In this document: positions 15,602 to 42,792 of the stretch, piece after piece
How the letters are laid out: each line of letters opens with the position of its first letter
Position numbering within the stretch: position 1 is the first letter of the stretch
Source of the DNA: an uncultured Pseudobutyrivibrio sp.
Lineage (GTDB): Bacteria; Bacillota; Clostridia; Lachnospirales; Lachnospiraceae
Direction: 5' to 3'
Length of the DNA: 44,824 nucleotides
Assembly (NCBI GenBank): GCA_902775195.1
Contig: CACYLQ010000018.1
Span: forward strand, 1 to 44,824
Notes under the pieces: model-generated
Seen by the model: only the letters and a program-made list of their open reading frames with translations
Databases searched by the model: none
Told to the model about the DNA's origin: nothing
Translations under genes and position numbers: made by a program

Positions 15602-16106
15602 ACTTATATTTTAAAGAATATGCTCTTATAAATCTACAGATTCTTTCAGTTGTTTCCATGTTTATCATCCTAAATATACCTAATTCCGCACATTAACACC
15701 GGGCTTAAGTTTATTTTTCAATAATCTATTTTCACTTAACAAAAATTTGCTATCAAGTTAAGTGAAAATACGTTTTTTATATCTTCACTTAAAATCCTAA
15801 TTACCTGTTAAGTTTTCTCATAAGAAATATTTTTTCACTTAACTTTTTCGACTGCTTTTTATGCCTAGTTAAGTGGATATTAAAAAAAGCCTTTTTCACT
15901 TAATCAGTTTTTAAGTGAAAAAGACCATCTTTCATATAAACTTAACTATAATTAAAAATATTTATGTAATCTTAAGTGAATTTATTTTTTTATTTCTCAC
16001 ACTTAACTCACTTTTGGATTTTTAAGTGGAATTTTCAAAATCAAATATTCACTTAACAATTCGGCCCAGTGCTACGTCTAATAGAATAATTCACTAGCTT
16101 CTATCA
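15602..16106. other. 505-base gene-free region holding array A
   Basis: No convincing gene. It holds an alternating inverted-repeat array (15705-16056) and, next to the SDR gene, about 100 AT-rich bases in which I see no strong promoter. A 23-codon open frame at 15588-15659 (minus) with a weak AGGA ahead of it is not supported enough to call. Confidence 0.8.
15705..16056. repeat. Array A: alternating inverted repeats TTAAGT / ACTTAA
   Basis: Fourteen copies of a short word in strict alternation. Forward TTAAGT starts at 15705, 15758, 15808, 15869, 15911, 15972 and 16022. Reverse ACTTAA starts at 15734, 15787, 15837, 15898, 15940, 16001 and 16051. Each forward copy is followed by its reverse copy exactly 29 bp later (23 unconserved bases between). 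The distance from reverse to next forward varies (24, 21, 32, 13, 32, 21). Better copies extend to GTTAAGTGAAAA / TTTTCACTTAAC, usually flanked by A or T tracts. Mean unit pitch is 317/6, about 52.8 bp. Not a known element to me. Confidence 0.93.
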
Positions 16107-24495: not shown

Positions 24496-25566
24496 CTAGT
24501 TAAAATACTTAAGTAGTTCCTTACAGCGGTCCATAGTCATTGTTGCATAGATATCATTATAGTCAACAGTTGCCATACTACCTCCGTCATGCTCAGCAGT
24601 TGCCTTTTCAGCACTAGCGTCTCTATCCTTGAGCCACTGTCTTTGCTCCTCAAGAGCTTTGTTAAATGTAGCTTCATCTGTGTTGTACTTGATTAAACGC
24701 CAAATATAATTAAGGCACTCATCCGAAACTCTAATCTGATTTGATGTAGCCTCTACCATATCTGCAGTAGTAGCTGCTTCTGAAAGCTGGTCTGCATAAT
24801 AATCATAGCTCTCTTTATATGTATTATAAGTACTCTCAGCATCTTCCTTAGGAGTCATTCTAGTATAGCTTGTAATACCCTGATTTTCATTAACATTTAC
24901 AAGCACAAGATTTTCCAAACTATCCTGTTGTTCCTGAGAACCAACGAAAATCCATGTCTTGATTTCATCGTCAATTTCTGAAACAGGCTTTCCTGGCATA
25001 TAGATTTCTATTTCATCTGCATTGTTAAGTGCATATGGGGTAACAGGAATGTATTTTACGCCATCTGCGATGTATTCATCATCATTATTTATAATGTTAA
25101 TATCCTTCATGTGCATTTTATATGTGAATTCATCAACCTTTTGGATATTTTCAAAATGGCCTTCGTATTCGCAATAATAACGTGTACCATCTGGATAACC
25201 ATCTCCACTATCACCCATATCTGAATCATGGTAACTGCCATGGAAGCTTCCGTCCTTTTCAATATAAAAATCATCTGACCATCCACCAGCACCGCTATAA
25301 AATGAATACCCATATTGGGCTAAATCAGCAAATGTTATTGTGGAATCATCTGCGACTTTTTCTAATTTGTTATCTTCAGCATTATTTGAATCCTTTGAAA
25401 CCGTTCCAACATCAATATTTTTTGTAGTGTTCTCAGTAATTTCATCTTTTGAATCACTATTTTTCACAAGATAATATACACCACATCCTGCCACCAACAC
25501 TAAAGCAACTATTATCAAAATAATGCTTATTCTTCTTTGCATTCTTTTCTTATGTCTTTTGCTCAT
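24496..25566 (-). CDS. Membrane-anchored protein with LprI/DUF1311-like C-terminus
   Basis: 356 residues. A basic start and one membrane helix (about 11-34, with a Cys at 28) anchor an extracellular part. The middle (about 75-200) has a GAGGWSDDF stretch and a DSDMGDSGDGYPDG loop and looks like a lipocalin- or beta-type domain I cannot name. The last ~85 residues, with ECLNYIWRLIKYN, EEQRQWLKDRD, GGSM and a final CKELLKYF, follow the LprI (lysozyme inhibitor, DUF1311) pattern. A lysozyme-protection role is possible but inferred. AAGGAG lies 8 bases ahead of ATGAGC. A terminator-like hairpin stands only about 25 bases upstream of its start. Confidence 0.72.
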   Translation of the reverse strand: MSKRHKKRMQRRISIILIIVALVLVAGCGVYYLVKNSDSKDEITENTTKNIDVGTVSKDSNNAEDNKLEKVADDSTITFADLAQYGYSFYSGAGGWSDDFYIEKDGSFHGSYHDSDMGDSGDGYPDGTRYYCEYEGHFENIQKVDEFTYKMHMKDINIINNDDEYIADGVKYIPVTPYALNNADEIEIYMPGKPVSEIDDEIKTWIFVGSQEQQDSLENLVLVNVNENQGITSYTRMTPKEDAESTYNTYKESYDYYADQLSEAATTADMVEATSNQIRVSDECLNYIWRLIKYNTDEATFNKALEEQRQWLKDRDASAEKATAEHDGGSMATVDYNDIYATMTMDRCKELLKYFN

Positions 25567-25976
25567 ACATTAATCTCCTTCCGGATGCTTAAAAAAGCAT
25601 CACCAAAATATTTTAATACAATGGTGATGCTTTTTCTACACTCATTCATTTTCTGGAGCATAATTAAAGGCCTATCTAGATATTTAATTCTTTATTCCAA
25701 TTGATATTACTATCTAGGAATCAATTATCATCGCAGGTAGTAGTCATTTTAAGATAGTCTACTATCTAAAAGCAATTTTGCTCTTACAGGTAGTAGCCCT
25801 ATCGCCTACAACTACTATCTATGCCATTTTTTTCTTCTCAGATAGTAGTCATCCAACTGGCCATTACTATCTGCAAAAGGAATTTATTCTATAGATAGTA
25901 ATCCTCTAAAAAAGCACTACTATCTATACAGCTATCTCTCCGTCTAGGTAGTAGTCGCTCCCAAAACCACTACTAT
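25567..25976. other. 410-base gene-free region: leader hairpin and array B
   Basis: No gene. From left to right it holds the ribosome binding site and terminator-like hairpin of the LprI-like gene (25584-25635), about 70 AT-rich bases without a clear promoter, and the alternating repeat array B, which runs on into the end of comEC. Confidence 0.8.
25584..25635 (-). promoter_or_regulatory. Terminator-like hairpin with alternative pairing (possible attenuator)
   Basis: Minus-strand stem AAAAAGCATCACCA (25622-25635) with TGGTGATGCTTTTT (25592-25605), 16-base loop, then a T run. Its 3' arm can instead pair with the next bases: GATGCTT (25595-25601) with AAGCATC (25584-25590), four-base loop. The AAGGAG of the LprI-like gene follows at once. 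There is no room for a promoter between hairpin and gene, so read-through would be needed for expression. On the plus strand the same stem also ends in five T. Confidence 0.65.
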
Positions 25977-26005
25977 CTATATTTCATTTTTAAGGCTCAG
26001 ATAGT
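25709..26005. repeat. Array B: alternating inverted repeats AGRTAGT / ACTATCT
   Basis: Reverse word ACTATCT starts at 25709, 25761, 25814, 25866, 25919 and 25972. Forward word AGRTAGT starts at 25735, 25788, 25840, 25893, 25946 and 25999. Forward to next reverse is exactly 26 bp in five of five cases; reverse to forward is 26 or 27 bp. Better copies extend to AGRTAGTAGTC / ACTACTATCTA. Unit pitch is 52-53 bp (mean 52.8), close to five turns of B-DNA. An extra AGATAGT at 25752 makes a tight palindrome with the copy at 25761. The last reverse copy overlaps the comEC stop codon and the last forward copy lies in its coding end. Confidence 0.93.
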
Positions 26006-28331
26006 ATTTTACGTATTCATCTACAACATCTGTGGTTACTTTTATACGGCCAGAATTCATGGTGTAATATACTTTGCCTGCCGCGGCTTCTAGTCGTTCG
26101 ATAGCTTCGGCAGATGGATGACCATAGCGGTTGCGCTTGGCACAGCTGATGACTGCCACATCAGGTGACAACACTGATAAAAACTGCTCGTTTGAGCTGT
26201 ATTTACTGCCGTGATGACTGACCTTTAGCAAATCAACGTGCCCAACCTGACCGCTAACTACTATGCCCTTTTCCTGTTCTGCACCGATATCGCCTCCGAA
26301 GAAGCCTGAGTAGTCACATTCTCCGTCGCAGTCTTTATCGTATTCCATTAAAAGAGACAGTGATAAAGCGTTAATATCATCAGAGGTAATTCCGTCAAAT
26401 GGATATAGGCATTTAAAGGATAAATGCTTGGTAACACAGATGTCGCCCTGACTCATGTAAACAATATTGGTACCATTAGCCTGAGCCAAAGCAATAAGCT
26501 GGTTCAAGGTATCTCCACTAGGAATCTCAGAAGAAAGTACGATATTATCAATTCTGTAGCCTGTGCTAAGAAGCTCTAGCACACCTGACACATGGTCCAA
26601 ATCCATATGAGACAAAAACCAATAGTCTATATGACCTGCCCCTTTGAATTTCAGAAATGGAAGCAGTGTATATTTTCCAACTGCATCAGAGCTGGTGCTG
26701 CCACCATCGATAAAAAATCTAGCACCATCTCCTGAACTGATGTAAATTCCATCGCCTTGTCCCACATCGAGAATATCAACCTCAAAGCCCTGCTTTTCAG
26801 GAATCAACCAAATCATCCCTGCAACAAAAAATAACACCATTACTACAACAAGCTGCCTTTTTGCTGTGCTAAGTAATATTCTTGGATTGGACTCCTCTTT
26901 AAGATTTGAATATATCTCTTTTATATATTTTCCAAGCTTAAACATATTACATATAAGAATAAGGACGATGTAATAGATAATCACAGCCCCTATGCTATGT
27001 CTTCCAACTACAGCATTTGCTGCAGGAAGCTCTGCGAATAATGTTGCAATCATTTCATACAGATAAATGATTAAATGAGTAAGCATTAAAACCCCCTGCC
27101 CAACAGGAAAAACTAATAATCCTACAAATCCACCAACAAGTCCAACCAAAAGAAGGACTGGCATTAATGGTAAAATCAGGGTGTTTAATATAACTGAATA
27201 TAAAGGTGCTTCGTAATAAAAATAAGTAACCAAAGGAAGCATGGACACGGTAATAGAAAAAGAAAAAATAATGCTAGAACCAAGCCACTGTTTAAATCTG
27301 ATAAAAACGGGTTCCTTTTCATTGTAATCAAATCCATTATCGCTTATACGTAGTCTCCTCTTTCTACTACAGAAGCTTGTATACATTTTGTTCAAAGGAG
27401 TAACCAAATGCACTATAACAAGTATTGCCCCAAAGGAAAATACAAAGCTGGCATTTGTTAAATATAAAGGATTCTCTAAAAGCAACAAGTCTGCCATAAC
27501 TGCAAGAGCCGTCAGGCTGTCGTAGCATTCTCCTAAAATATCAGCCAGGATATAAATCAAAAACATGCCTATAGCCCTAACTGAAGAAATACTTCCCCCA
27601 GTCAAAAGGCCATACATAACTGCTATTACCCCAGCAATAATTCCACTTGTCAAAAAGCTAATGCCTCTTGCCCTTAAGAACCTGTAAAAAGACATGCATA
27701 CAACTGATATATGTAATCCTGACACTGCCATGATATGAGCAATGCCAACAAGCTGAAACAATAATTTCAACTGACTATCTAAGTCACTTTTATTTCCAAG
27801 ACAAACACTGCCAAGAAAACCTGCCTCCTCGCCAGGAAGAGACCTGCTGTAAACTGACATCACATTCTTGTTTAATTTGTATAACAAATCAAGGCTAATG
27901 ATTCTACCAGCCTTAACCTCCTTCACATCTGCCCCATCAACCATAAGATAATAACCCAAGGAATTATAATAAGACCTTTCATCAAAGCCTCCTTCATTTC
28001 TAGGCCTTCTGAATAGTTTGGCAGTGCCTGCTATATTTACTTTACTTTTGTTTGGAATTTTATCGGAATCAAATTTAAATATGATAGAAATGTTTGTTAA
28101 AGTGCCTTTTTCACAATTAATAGTGGCATCCTTAACATAATAAATAGTTGAATCTTTTTTAATTTCCTTGCGGATAATATTACCATTTACATCTAACCTG
28201 TCTCCATCAGCAATCACTGATAAAACAGTATCAGCTTTTGTGTAGGCCCCTATAAAATCTAAGGGGCCATACACACTGAATGCAATAATAAAAATATAAA
28301 CCAAGGAAATTAAGCACAGCTTTCTTCGCAA
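25977..28331 (-). CDS. comEC: DNA uptake channel protein ComEC/Rec2
   Basis: 784 residues. It forms the membrane channel for single-stranded DNA during competence. Order: N-terminal helix and OB-like part, competence domain with many helices (about 190-470, with VSGLHISV), then a metallo-beta-lactamase-like domain with DVGQGDG (near 520), HMDLDHVSG (near 575) and VSHHGS (near 704). The start is a TTG with AGGAGG eight bases upstream; no nearby ATG fits better. It ends the comEA-regulator-kinase-GerMN-comEC run. Its last codons and stop lie inside array B. Confidence 0.94.
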   Translation of the reverse strand: MRRKLCLISLVYIFIIAFSVYGPLDFIGAYTKADTVLSVIADGDRLDVNGNIIRKEIKKDSTIYYVKDATINCEKGTLTNISIIFKFDSDKIPNKSKVNIAGTAKLFRRPRNEGGFDERSYYNSLGYYLMVDGADVKEVKAGRIISLDLLYKLNKNVMSVYSRSLPGEEAGFLGSVCLGNKSDLDSQLKLLFQLVGIAHIMAVSGLHISVVCMSFYRFLRARGISFLTSGIIAGVIAVMYGLLTGGSISSVRAIGMFLIYILADILGECYDSLTALAVMADLLLLENPLYLTNASFVFSFGAILVIVHLVTPLNKMYTSFCSRKRRLRISDNGFDYNEKEPVFIRFKQWLGSSIIFSFSITVSMLPLVTYFYYEAPLYSVILNTLILPLMPVLLLVGLVGGFVGLLVFPVGQGVLMLTHLIIYLYEMIATLFAELPAANAVVGRHSIGAVIIYYIVLILICNMFKLGKYIKEIYSNLKEESNPRILLSTAKRQLVVVMVLFFVAGMIWLIPEKQGFEVDILDVGQGDGIYISSGDGARFFIDGGSTSSDAVGKYTLLPFLKFKGAGHIDYWFLSHMDLDHVSGVLELLSTGYRIDNIVLSSEIPSGDTLNQLIALAQANGTNIVYMSQGDICVTKHLSFKCLYPFDGITSDDINALSLSLLMEYDKDCDGECDYSGFFGGDIGAEQEKGIVVSGQVGHVDLLKVSHHGSKYSSNEQFLSVLSPDVAVISCAKRNRYGHPSAEAIERLEAAAGKVYYTMNSGRIKVTTDVVDEYVKYYLSLKNEI

Positions 28332-40851: not shown

Positions 40852-42792
40852 TTAATTGGCTGTTCCTTGTACAGTCTGAGTCTGTGGTTCACCTGCTACT
40901 CCTTCAGCTGGTGTAAGAGTAACTGTAAGCTGAGCCTTTGTAACATCAGAAATATTGATTGCACCACTCTTTGGAATAGTACCTGACTTGTTTAATTCAT
41001 TGATTGAATATGTGCAGTCTCCCTCGAATGGGTTAGCAATTGTATAGTTATATGTTGTAGCCTTTGTTCCCTTGCTGATTACAAGTGTGATTGTTGTATT
41101 TGCAGCAACCATTTCACCTGGAGCAATTGACTGGCTGATAACCTGACCCTGTGGAACAGTATCAGAGTAATCTGTTGATGTGCTTGTAACAACGATGTTC
41201 TTGGCATCAAGTACAGTTGTTGCCTCTGCCTGTGTAAGACCAACTACGCTAGGTACTGCAACTGTTGCCTTGCTATCTGTTTCTGTAGCCTTGTTCTCAG
41301 TTGTAGTAGTAGTCTGAGTCTGCTGTGTAGTTGTGTTGCTCTTGTTTGAAGAAGAGCTTGAACTACTACTGCTATCCTTTGATTCAGACTGTCCGTTAGA
41401 ATCTGATGAGCTTGAATCGCTGCTTGTTTGCTCATCACCAGCAACTGTAAGTCTAAGTGTATCGTTTAATGAGAACTCATCGCCCTCTTTTGTAGACTGG
41501 CTCATAACTACGCCGTCTTCATAATCATCACTATCTTCGTAAGAAACTAAAATATTGTCATCCTCAAGACCTAAATCTGTAAGCTGTGTCTTAGCCTCTT
41601 CGTACTGAGTACCAACAACATTAATCATTGTTACCTTCTTAGAACCAAACTTAAATAATCCAACACGTGAGCCAAATATAGCAACAAGGATAACTACGAT
41701 TGCAATACCTGCAACGATTCCAGAGATTGTGATGATTTTATCCATCTTACCATCATCCTCTTCCTCGTCTTCATCATAGTATTCATCATCATAATATTCG
41801 TCATCATAGTACTCGTCATCATCGTAGTACTCTTCTTCATCCTGGTACTCATCATCAAAGATAAGTGCCTGTGCAGCCTTCTTTGTAAGTGAATCCTCCT
41901 GCTCTGGAGTGATACGAGGCATAACCTTTGTCTGGCCAAGCTCAGATTCTGAAATAACAACGAAATCCTCATTAGGGCTAACTAATGCCTTCTTTAAATC
42001 CATAAGCATGTCAGAGATAGTTCCATATCTTCTGTCTGGAGACTTCATTGTAGCCTTAAGGATAATTTTCTCTAATGAAATAGGAAGGTCAGGTGCGTAT
42101 GCACTAGGTGCAACCATTTCTTCCTGAAGATGCTGGATAGCAATGGCAACTGTGTTATCTCCATCGAAAGGAACACGGCCTGTAACCATTTCGTACATTA
42201 CAATACCAAGAGAGTAAATATCACTCTTACCATCAACGAATCCGTTTCTAGCCTGCTCTGGTGATGAATAATGAACTGAGCCCATTACATCAGCATGAAT
42301 TGTGTTTGAGCTAGCTGCTCTTGCGATACCGAAATCTGTAACCTTTACCTTTCCTTCTGTGGAAATGATAATGTTCTGTGGTTTGATATCTCTATGAATA
42401 ATGCCCTTCTGGTGAGCTGCTTCAATACCACGTCCCACCTGAATTGCGATTGAGATTGCTTCTTTAAAATTAAGCTGGCCCTTCTTTTCAATGTATGTCT
42501 TAAGAGTGATACCCTCAACATATTCCATTACAATGAAATACATTCCATTTTCAGAGCCTACATCATAAATGTTAACGATGTTTGGATGCTCAAGACCTGC
42601 TGCCGACTGAGCCTCTGTTCTAAACTTTGCTACGAAGGTTGCATCCTCTGAAAACTCCTGCTTTAAGATTTTGATTGCAACTTCTCTTCCTAAAATATGG
42701 TCCTTGGCACGGTATACATCTGACATTCCGCCTGCGCCAACTTTATCAATAACTTCATATCTGTCTGCAATAAATACGCCTTGTGTAATCAT
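40852..42792 (-). CDS. prkC: PASTA-domain Ser/Thr protein kinase PrkC
   Basis: Membrane kinase of the PrkC/Stk type, 646 residues. Kinase domain about 12-270 with GAGGMSDVYRA (near 18), VAIKILK, HRDIKPQN and VTDFGIA. Then an acidic, tyrosine-rich juxtamembrane tract (about 313-345), a membrane helix at 349-371, two PASTA repeats (from MINVVGTQYEEA and VPSVVGLTQAEA) separated by a Ser/Thr/Gln-rich linker, and a C-terminal extracellular domain. PASTA domains in relatives bind muropeptides or lipid II. The phosphatase gene precedes it by 15 bases. Confidence 0.96.
   Translation of the reverse strand: MITQGVFIADRYEVIDKVGAGGMSDVYRAKDHILGREVAIKILKQEFSEDATFVAKFRTEAQSAAGLEHPNIVNIYDVGSENGMYFIVMEYVEGITLKTYIEKKGQLNFKEAISIAIQVGRGIEAAHQKGIIHRDIKPQNIIISTEGKVKVTDFGIARAASSNTIHADVMGSVHYSSPEQARNGFVDGKSDIYSLGIVMYEMVTGRVPFDGDNTVAIAIQHLQEEMVAPSAYAPDLPISLEKIILKATMKSPDRRYGTISDMLMDLKKALVSPNEDFVVISESELGQTKVMPRITPEQEDSLTKKAAQALIFDDEYQDEEEYYDDDEYYDDEYYDDEYYDEDEEEDDGKMDKIITISGIVAGIAIVVILVAIFGSRVGLFKFGSKKVTMINVVGTQYEEAKTQLTDLGLEDDNILVSYEDSDDYEDGVVMSQSTKEGDEFSLNDTLRLTVAGDEQTSSDSSSSDSNGQSESKDSSSSSSSSSNKSNTTTQQTQTTTTTENKATETDSKATVAVPSVVGLTQAEATTVLDAKNIVVTSTSTDYSDTVPQGQVISQSIAPGEMVAANTTITLVISKGTKATTYNYTIANPFEGDCTYSINELNKSGTIPKSGAINISDVTKAQLTVTLTPAEGVAGEPQTQTVQGTAN
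41771..41833 (-). repeat. 15-bp in-frame tandem repeat in prkC
   Basis: Four near-identical copies of a 15-base unit (41771-41785, 41786-41800, 41801-41815, and 41816-41833 with one extra codon) that encode EYYDD-like blocks just inside the membrane helix of PrkC. As 15 bases are five codons, copy-number slips would keep the frame. Confidence 0.85.

Follow-up and report, generated by a model that had tools for sequence, protein, structure and literature searches.

Helically phased arrays of inverted words in Pseudobutyrivibrio and their linked family of PD-(D/E)xK nuclease-like proteins

The alternating inverted words found behind a comEC-like gene in the window (the whole stretch analysed, 44,824 nucleotides from an uncultured Pseudobutyrivibrio sp., Lachnospiraceae), here called array B, are a member of a genus-wide set of arrays with a linked nuclease-like gene, and that gene is missing at the window's own site. 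The arrays are probably helically phased binding sites of a cognate nuclease-like protein, which would act by a logic like that of RAYT/REPIN systems with an unrelated protein and an unrelated repeat.

The earlier note on this DNA had described twelve inverted words alternating at steps of 26 or 27 bp, and a chain rule asking for at least four words recovered exactly these positions (Table 1), array B being the sole array of that rule in the window and none appearing in 200 shuffles. The steps in order are 26, 26, 27, 26, 26, 26, 27, 26, 27, 26 and 27, with forward-to-forward distances of 53, 52, 53, 53 and 53; the forward-to-reverse step is 26 in five of five cases, as had been stated, and the reverse-to-forward step is 26 or 27. 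Elsewhere in the window, a 15/18-bp tandem repeat (41771-41857) lies within the minus-strand frame 40852-42792 and probably codes for an acidic stretch.

Table 1. Features of the window, with positions counted from its first letter
Feature	Coordinates	Strand	Remarks
Array A	15705..16056	.	Words TTAAGTG/CACTTAA, layout as array B
Downstream neighbour	24496..25566	-	LprI domain; other flank of the site
Short terminator-like hairpin	25592..25635	.	Between array B and the neighbour
Array B	25709..26005	.	12 inverted words (YAGRTAGTAR), alternating; 52.8 bp per pair
Array B word 1	25709..25715	-	
Array B word 2	25735..25741	+	
Array B word 3	25761..25767	-	
Array B word 4	25788..25794	+	
Array B word 5	25814..25820	-	
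Array B word 6	25840..25846	+	
Array B word 7	25866..25872	-	
Array B word 8	25893..25899	+	
Array B word 9	25919..25925	-	
Array B word 10	25946..25952	+	
Array B word 11	25972..25978	-	
Array B word 12	25999..26005	+	Minus-strand reading is part of the comEC frame end
comEC-like gene	25977..28331	-	Competence and metallo-beta-lactamase domains
Putative deletion junction	26006..26007	.	By-eye comparison; the break abuts a word

The three-word pattern could be found in 11 of 29 Pseudobutyrivibrio genomes (0 of 29 for the reversed control) and in 90 stretches of named genomes, of which 54 were from Pseudobutyrivibrio, 32 from Antribacter, three from Corynebacterium and one from Parafannyhessea. 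The window's genome contained five further AGRTAGT-type arrays, on contigs C6, C38, C49, C89 and C188. Anatomy, covariation and divergence were examined in 51 loci, comprising the window, five loci of its genome and 45 of the 54 named Pseudobutyrivibrio stretches. The conserved word of the 51 arrays is YAGRTAGTAR, which contains GTAG in its AGGTAGT form and agrees with the 10-11 conserved bases per word claimed earlier. Counts of steps, strands and gene contexts are not independent, because some of these loci are mutually orthologous; with this reservation, 242 of 262 forward-to-reverse steps measure 26 and another 14 are one helical turn shorter, at 15 or 16; of 296 reverse-to-forward steps, 229 measure 26 and 66 measure 27; and 36 of the 51 arrays begin with a reverse word and end with a forward one. 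The linkers (reverse to forward) carry an A-tract centred on their midpoint, whereas the cores have no tract so marked, and within one array the linkers are A-rich on the same strand in 255 of 279 cases. To the earlier statement that cores and linkers are all different, the A-tract adds that not every spacer is without features. In 15 related array pairs the words diverge three times more slowly than the spacers (0.046 vs 0.146 at other positions). Some arrays grow through tandem duplication of units, as seen in the self-similarity of the G004:C14 array at a shift of ~105 bp; decay of a longer tandem repeat, an objection raised beforehand, may therefore hold partly for the origin of the arrays, but the words are selectively kept.

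The pitches lie near whole numbers of helical turns (5, 6 or 7) and differ by the gain or loss of one turn. Two-step sums, which take pairs of single steps of 18-44 only and are not mutually independent within one array, could range from 36 to 88, and yet all 273 in the genus fall at 50-54 (209), 61-66 (25) or 71-76 (39) and all 141 in other genera at 51-54 (91), 61-64 (28) or 74-76 (22). The 51 per-array medians fall at 51-54 (37), 62-66 (7) and 72-74 (7), the scanner also having allowed a same-orientation step at 48-64 only, which favours arrays of that pitch. The helical period itself is not sharply resolved, with a resultant of 0.86-0.89 for 10 to 11 bp. Gaps between ACTTAA units (n = 27) are 15 (11), 26 (10), 17-18 (4) and 6-7 (2), and very long arrays of 21 and 23 words with a pitch of ~73-75 bp lie by other paralogs (L242 1-1500 and upstream of L335). 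The spacing rule, whose loss in orthologous loci had been named in advance as counter-evidence, survives there and in paralogous arrays; together with the pitches at whole turns in the wider set and the conservation of words against drifting spacers, this favours the earlier proposal of a scaffold on which proteins would bind in order.

Behind comEC in AD2017 (G004, the two corresponding at 7 of 7 compared regions), OR37 (L029; G024) and G011, two 14-word paralogous arrays bracket a 263-aa gene. Of the 14 words in the comEC-distal array of G004/AD2017, array B retains the counterparts of 12. The window lacks the first unit of array 2, together with array 1 and the nuclease-like gene, all of which G004/AD2017 has. 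Six of the window's 11 spacers are identical to those of AD2017 array 2 and the other five are 0.89-0.95 alike, while arrays 1 and 2 of AD2017, compared unit by unit, match at 0.75-1.0 in segments 2-10 and at 0.57-0.68 at both ends. The comEC frame runs into the array in the window and ends ..DEYVKYYLSLKNEI vs ..DEYVKPD, its C-terminal residues YYLSLKNEI being array-encoded in place of PD in G004. In other genomes the site keeps a single unit (G006) or nothing (G014). Given the missing gene and array 1, the spacers of AD2017 array 2 and the reduced or empty sites of G006 and G014, array B can be read as a solo remnant, in which the DNA half of a two-part system has probably been left behind as an orphan. 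Since the linked gene is gone, array B may have no cognate reader in the window's genome (assembly 87% complete), where the closest member of the family that was found is 45% alike, with a different word.

Upstream of most paralogs examined lies an array built on the paralog's own word of 6-10 bp. The scan accepted any inverted 6-letter word in alternating order, with at least four words, in the 900 bp upstream and downstream of the gene. Among 70 genus loci, a non-random set of 30 returned by the family search and 40 picked by hand from eight genomes (G000-G004, G020, G027, G028), an array was found upstream at 54, downstream at 10 and in shuffled upstream sequence at none. The corresponding counts for 31 loci of other genera (one per genus, several having <320 bp of upstream sequence) were 18, 1 and 0, and the exact-word scan found no upstream array at 16 of the 70 and 13 of the 31 loci. 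Nine of the 11 family matches of the window's genome are among the 70 loci, six of the nine having an upstream array, and five further G175 copies, outside the 31, have an array upstream in two and downstream in three. Words at paralogs include AGATAGTAG, AGGCAGTA, CGTGTC, CACGCA, ATGCATCC, CACTGTAA, TTACCACT and ACTTAA. Across the 68 members with a word (49 genus, 19 other), the word was shared by 11 of 11 pairs at protein identity of at least 80%, 56% of 41 pairs at 60-80%, 20% of 75 at 50-60%, 8% of 265 at 40-50% and at most 1% below 40%. Paralogs thus differ in their words, and the more alike two proteins are, the more alike are their words (Mantel r 0.424, 0 of 999 permutations), a correlation that is partly due to common descent of the DNA. 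A protein and its own word very probably form a cognate pair, the one binding the other.

The multicopy family could be found in 28 of 29 Pseudobutyrivibrio genomes, and no Pfam or NCBIfam match above noise was obtained for it. Its members, of ~263 aa, combine an N-terminal helical hairpin with a C-terminal nuclease fold, which the structure aligner, among the families on its list, assigned to the PD-(D/E)xK superfamily. E160, P190-D191-F192 and E206 are invariant in 26 of 26 paralogs and make up the E ... PD ... E motif of that superfamily. The ExK lysine is not at its usual place, the family having E206-H207-x-G209 there, with H207, K158 and K223 invariant instead in the 26 paralogs; known PD-(D/E)xK variants also differ at this lysine. 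The linked gene is PD-(D/E)xK nuclease-like, and its product could have metal-dependent DNA cleavage activity. The protein is under purifying selection, with dN/dS of 0.08-0.20 in six of seven pairs, the seventh being not computable.

Same-word satellites sit in 3' intergenic sites and co-occur with the gene. Array A belongs as a satellite to a different paralog, L218 (G000:C131), upstream of which its word recurs; further ACTTAA arrays lie at G000:C49:819-1182 and C5:16063-16414. Two co-occurrence tests were made on genomes that are not independent. With the ACTTAA gene class defined by protein only (E of 1e-60 or better to L218, 48% identity or more), the gene occurs in 10 of 29 genomes, the arrays in 10 and both in nine (Fisher 9.5e-6). 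AGRTAGT arrays at the searched spacing occur in 8 of 8 genomes with the gene vs 3 of 21 without it (p 3.8e-5), a test that is partly circular because this gene class is defined by the upstream array; when G021 and G028, which have AGRTAGT-like words at 51-bp pitch, are counted as gene-positive, arrays occur in 8 of 10 vs 3 of 19 (p 1.3e-3; alternative figure 3.0e-4). The array-positive genomes lacking the gene are G000, G006 and G014 for AGRTAGT and G008 for ACTTAA, and G026 has the gene with the array pattern unmatched. Under a strict scan, 400 kb sampled from the window's genome contained two ACTTAA-type arrays next to each other and 400 kb of AD2017 contained four arrays, one of them with the word CACGCA but without its gene alongside. 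In the window's genome, the AGATAGT array on C38 (L023 6810-9533) directly adjoins, at its 3' end, a gene for a helicase that has a DUF2726 domain.

Satellites are also gained and lost. The L364 array is cleanly absent in G024 (to within ~10 bp), where no target-site duplication was found at the empty site, and about one word is left in G006 and G011, remnants that make loss likelier than gain. By match coordinates, G024 lacks the L368 array and G006 has a shrunken form of it; in RGIG4783 (L064) this array runs to 21 words. Related satellites occur at different loci of one genome in OR37 (L028/L104), AD2017 (L089, two of L115) and P. xylanivorans. In P. xylanivorans DSM 14809, nine loci (L048, L071, L072, L075, L085, L093, L103, L111, L112) hold AGGTAGT-array copies inside a repeat of at least 0.5 kb, ~79-97% alike; L075 and L103, both at contig ends, are 100% alike over 343 bp and may be one copy. 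Lying as they do inside a larger repeat, these recent copies may have been moved by another agent. Among the six arrays of the window's genome, no likeness outside the words was found between any two, so that copying in trans is not seen there.

It is possible, though we consider it clearly the less probable reading, that the system is regulatory without mobility, the protein being an autoregulated DNA-binding factor, its array the operator and the satellites regulatory or architectural elements. The placement of arrays 5' of the gene at 54 of 70 loci, ending ~200 bp or less from its start in 44 of 53, would suit such a factor, as would the unrelated satellites of the window's genome and some satellite positions common to different species. 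However, a search for a common theme among satellite neighbours (20 proteins at 16 loci, 15 of the 20 with a Pfam family) returned ordinary and unrelated proteins, and the arrays lie behind genes rather than in promoters, with 33 tandem, 8 convergent and 1 divergent context among the 42 loci with both flanks known (the remaining 9 of 51 are without one flank, and neighbouring genes are longest-ORF calls). Moreover, a nuclease-fold motif invariant in all 26 paralogs would be odd for a pure regulator. Mobility in preference to pure regulation is, on this evidence, an evenly poised question.

It is unlikely that the arrays belong to an anti-phage system, storing or restraining a nuclease directed against invading DNA. 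All 26 scanned members show similarity to the PADLOC candidate PDC-S68 in its C-terminal part (best 3.8e-30) and the gene is often gained and lost, but the resemblance is to one end of a ~1,200-aa protein, and neither neighbour at the comEC site is a defence gene. Large proteins of other bacteria, with open frames of ~1,200 aa or, on plasmids, as AAA ATPases, end in a family-like domain (L260, L263, L265 and the plasmid hits H1-H5). Carriage of the family by plasmids or phages was considered and rejected: five plasmid records match only partially, over query 147-263 or less, four of them annotated as AAA ATPase, and three short unannotated phage records match, with no array found in MT839528 (the sole near-full-length match, 31%) or MT837260. 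Four viral contigs with a three-word pattern match were likewise set aside, being without an array of at least four words.

The other reading in the earlier note, a set of hairpins showing different loops, is not supported, and a role of the words as 3' UTR structures, formed by their pairing in RNA, is very improbable. Folding is better than in shuffles on either strand (z -5.9 minus, -7.9 plus strand), as it must be for any inverted array, and in 25 of 33 tandem contexts the linkers are A-rich on the strand that is sense for the gene. Covariation, however, is absent: at the one variable word position, which is what the within-array control covers (invariant positions lie outside its scope), pairs number 164 vs 160.4 in within-array shuffles (sd 4.0) across linkers and 146 vs 145.4 (sd 4.2) across cores, and A-C combinations (38 in linkers, 32 in cores) are as frequent as G-U (34 in each). 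The variable base correlates across arrays because some arrays prefer one word form. The first linker base outside the word pairs in 63 cases vs 89.7 expected, and core position 9 has a weak pair excess (97 vs 85.3, a figure without the within-array control). Clustering at whole helical turns has no obvious meaning for RNA, and no Rfam match was found at array B. RNA hairpins were therefore discarded as the principal function.

REP/BIME or REPIN elements moved by a RAYT (Y1/HUH) transposase, which alternating orientation, regular spacing and 3' intergenic placement might recall (PMC2817692, PMC3733652), are the least credible explanation of all, since Y1_Tnp (PF01797) is unmatched in 8 of 11 array-positive genus genomes and does not track the arrays, the conserved part is the words and not 20-40 bp palindromes, and the linked gene is PD-(D/E)xK-like.

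The pattern matches in Antribacter, Corynebacterium and Parafannyhessea were rejected as part of the system. No family match was found in five actinobacterial genomes with pattern matches (a search without a positive control), and the Antribacter units are, by eye, conserved palindromes, for which reasons these matches are taken as a separate thing. High-GC Antribacter (L030, L032, L036, L042, L083, L100 and others) has many AGGTAGT-19-ACTACCT palindromes with a GTCCGAC/GTCGGAC-like centre, often paired at the 26-bp step of the arrays. A search of two Antribacter genomes gave no match to the family, and the palindromes may be GTAG-type REPs. In Parafannyhessea umbonata (L101 4130-4430), alternating inverted words like ACTWTCTGACAG and its complement occur, some at the 26-bp step, and no family member matched in its genome.

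We therefore return to a cognate nuclease-like protein on helically phased arrays. As words of like orientation share one face of the helix and changes by whole turns are tolerated, the family protein may bind the words as repeated dimers, or as higher oligomers, along that face. The helical hairpin could bridge neighbouring words, and the A-tract could ease a bend. The upstream array would let the protein control or recognise its own gene, and the satellites could be non-autonomous copies of the array, kept or spread in trans as RAYT proteins keep REPINs. It is reasonable to lean, by a small margin, towards a new class of bacterial genome element, widespread in Lachnospiraceae, in which diversified PD-(D/E)xK proteins would each read their own word in phase-locked arrays and in trans satellites. 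If so, the proteins would recognise not an isolated site but a lattice in phase with the helix, and repeated changes of word specificity inside one genome would have produced a natural library of protein-word pairs. The system joins three things that were not met together in the open-access literature searched, a nuclease-like family without Pfam or NCBIfam match above noise, different words at different paralogs and spacing at 5, 6 or 7 turns; from its dozens of natural pairs it could be read how a nuclease fold changes DNA specificity, and its satellites could offer a second, RAYT-independent case for why bacteria keep dispersed repeats. No published account of these arrays or this family was found in the open-access literature, and what is apparently undescribed is the protein family, the conservation of words only, the phase-locking of the arrays and the multitude of paralog-word pairs in a genome, the logic itself being known from RAYT/REPIN.

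Compared with known systems, the arrays differ from CRISPR, with its direct repeats and unique spacers, in that the words alternate in orientation and the spacers are inherited between species unit by unit. The family differs from T7 endonuclease I, Bax1, Hjc and VRR_NUC in its N-terminal half, in having E-H-x-G where these have ExK, and in its linked DNA arrays. Unlike Tn7-type ends with TnsA, the arrays lie mostly on one side of the gene and their words invert every half pitch, and the immediate neighbours at the comEC site, to which this comparison is limited, are neither TnsB nor TnsC. BIME units (PMC2817692) also alternate in orientation at regular spacing, but here conservation is confined to words of ~10 bp, pitches cluster at whole turns and a PD-(D/E)xK gene is linked. 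The RAYT/REPIN system pairs a long-kept gene with same-type, non-autonomous inverted repeats in extragenic sites, which are more numerous in genomes with the RAYT gene (PMC8049555), and RAYT genes may be flanked by their own repeats (PMC3733652). The present arrays are likewise dispersed, extragenic and rarely between divergent genes, with the gene-linked words AGRTAGT and ACTTAA recurring elsewhere. Nevertheless, RAYT is an HUH/Y1 protein whereas the present one is PD-(D/E)xK-like, and a REPIN is built of conserved 20-40 bp palindromic REPs with a GTAG/CGTC head whereas the present words are of ~10 bp, with spacers free except for the A-tract; and here a single genome holds up to 11 family matches, with different words.
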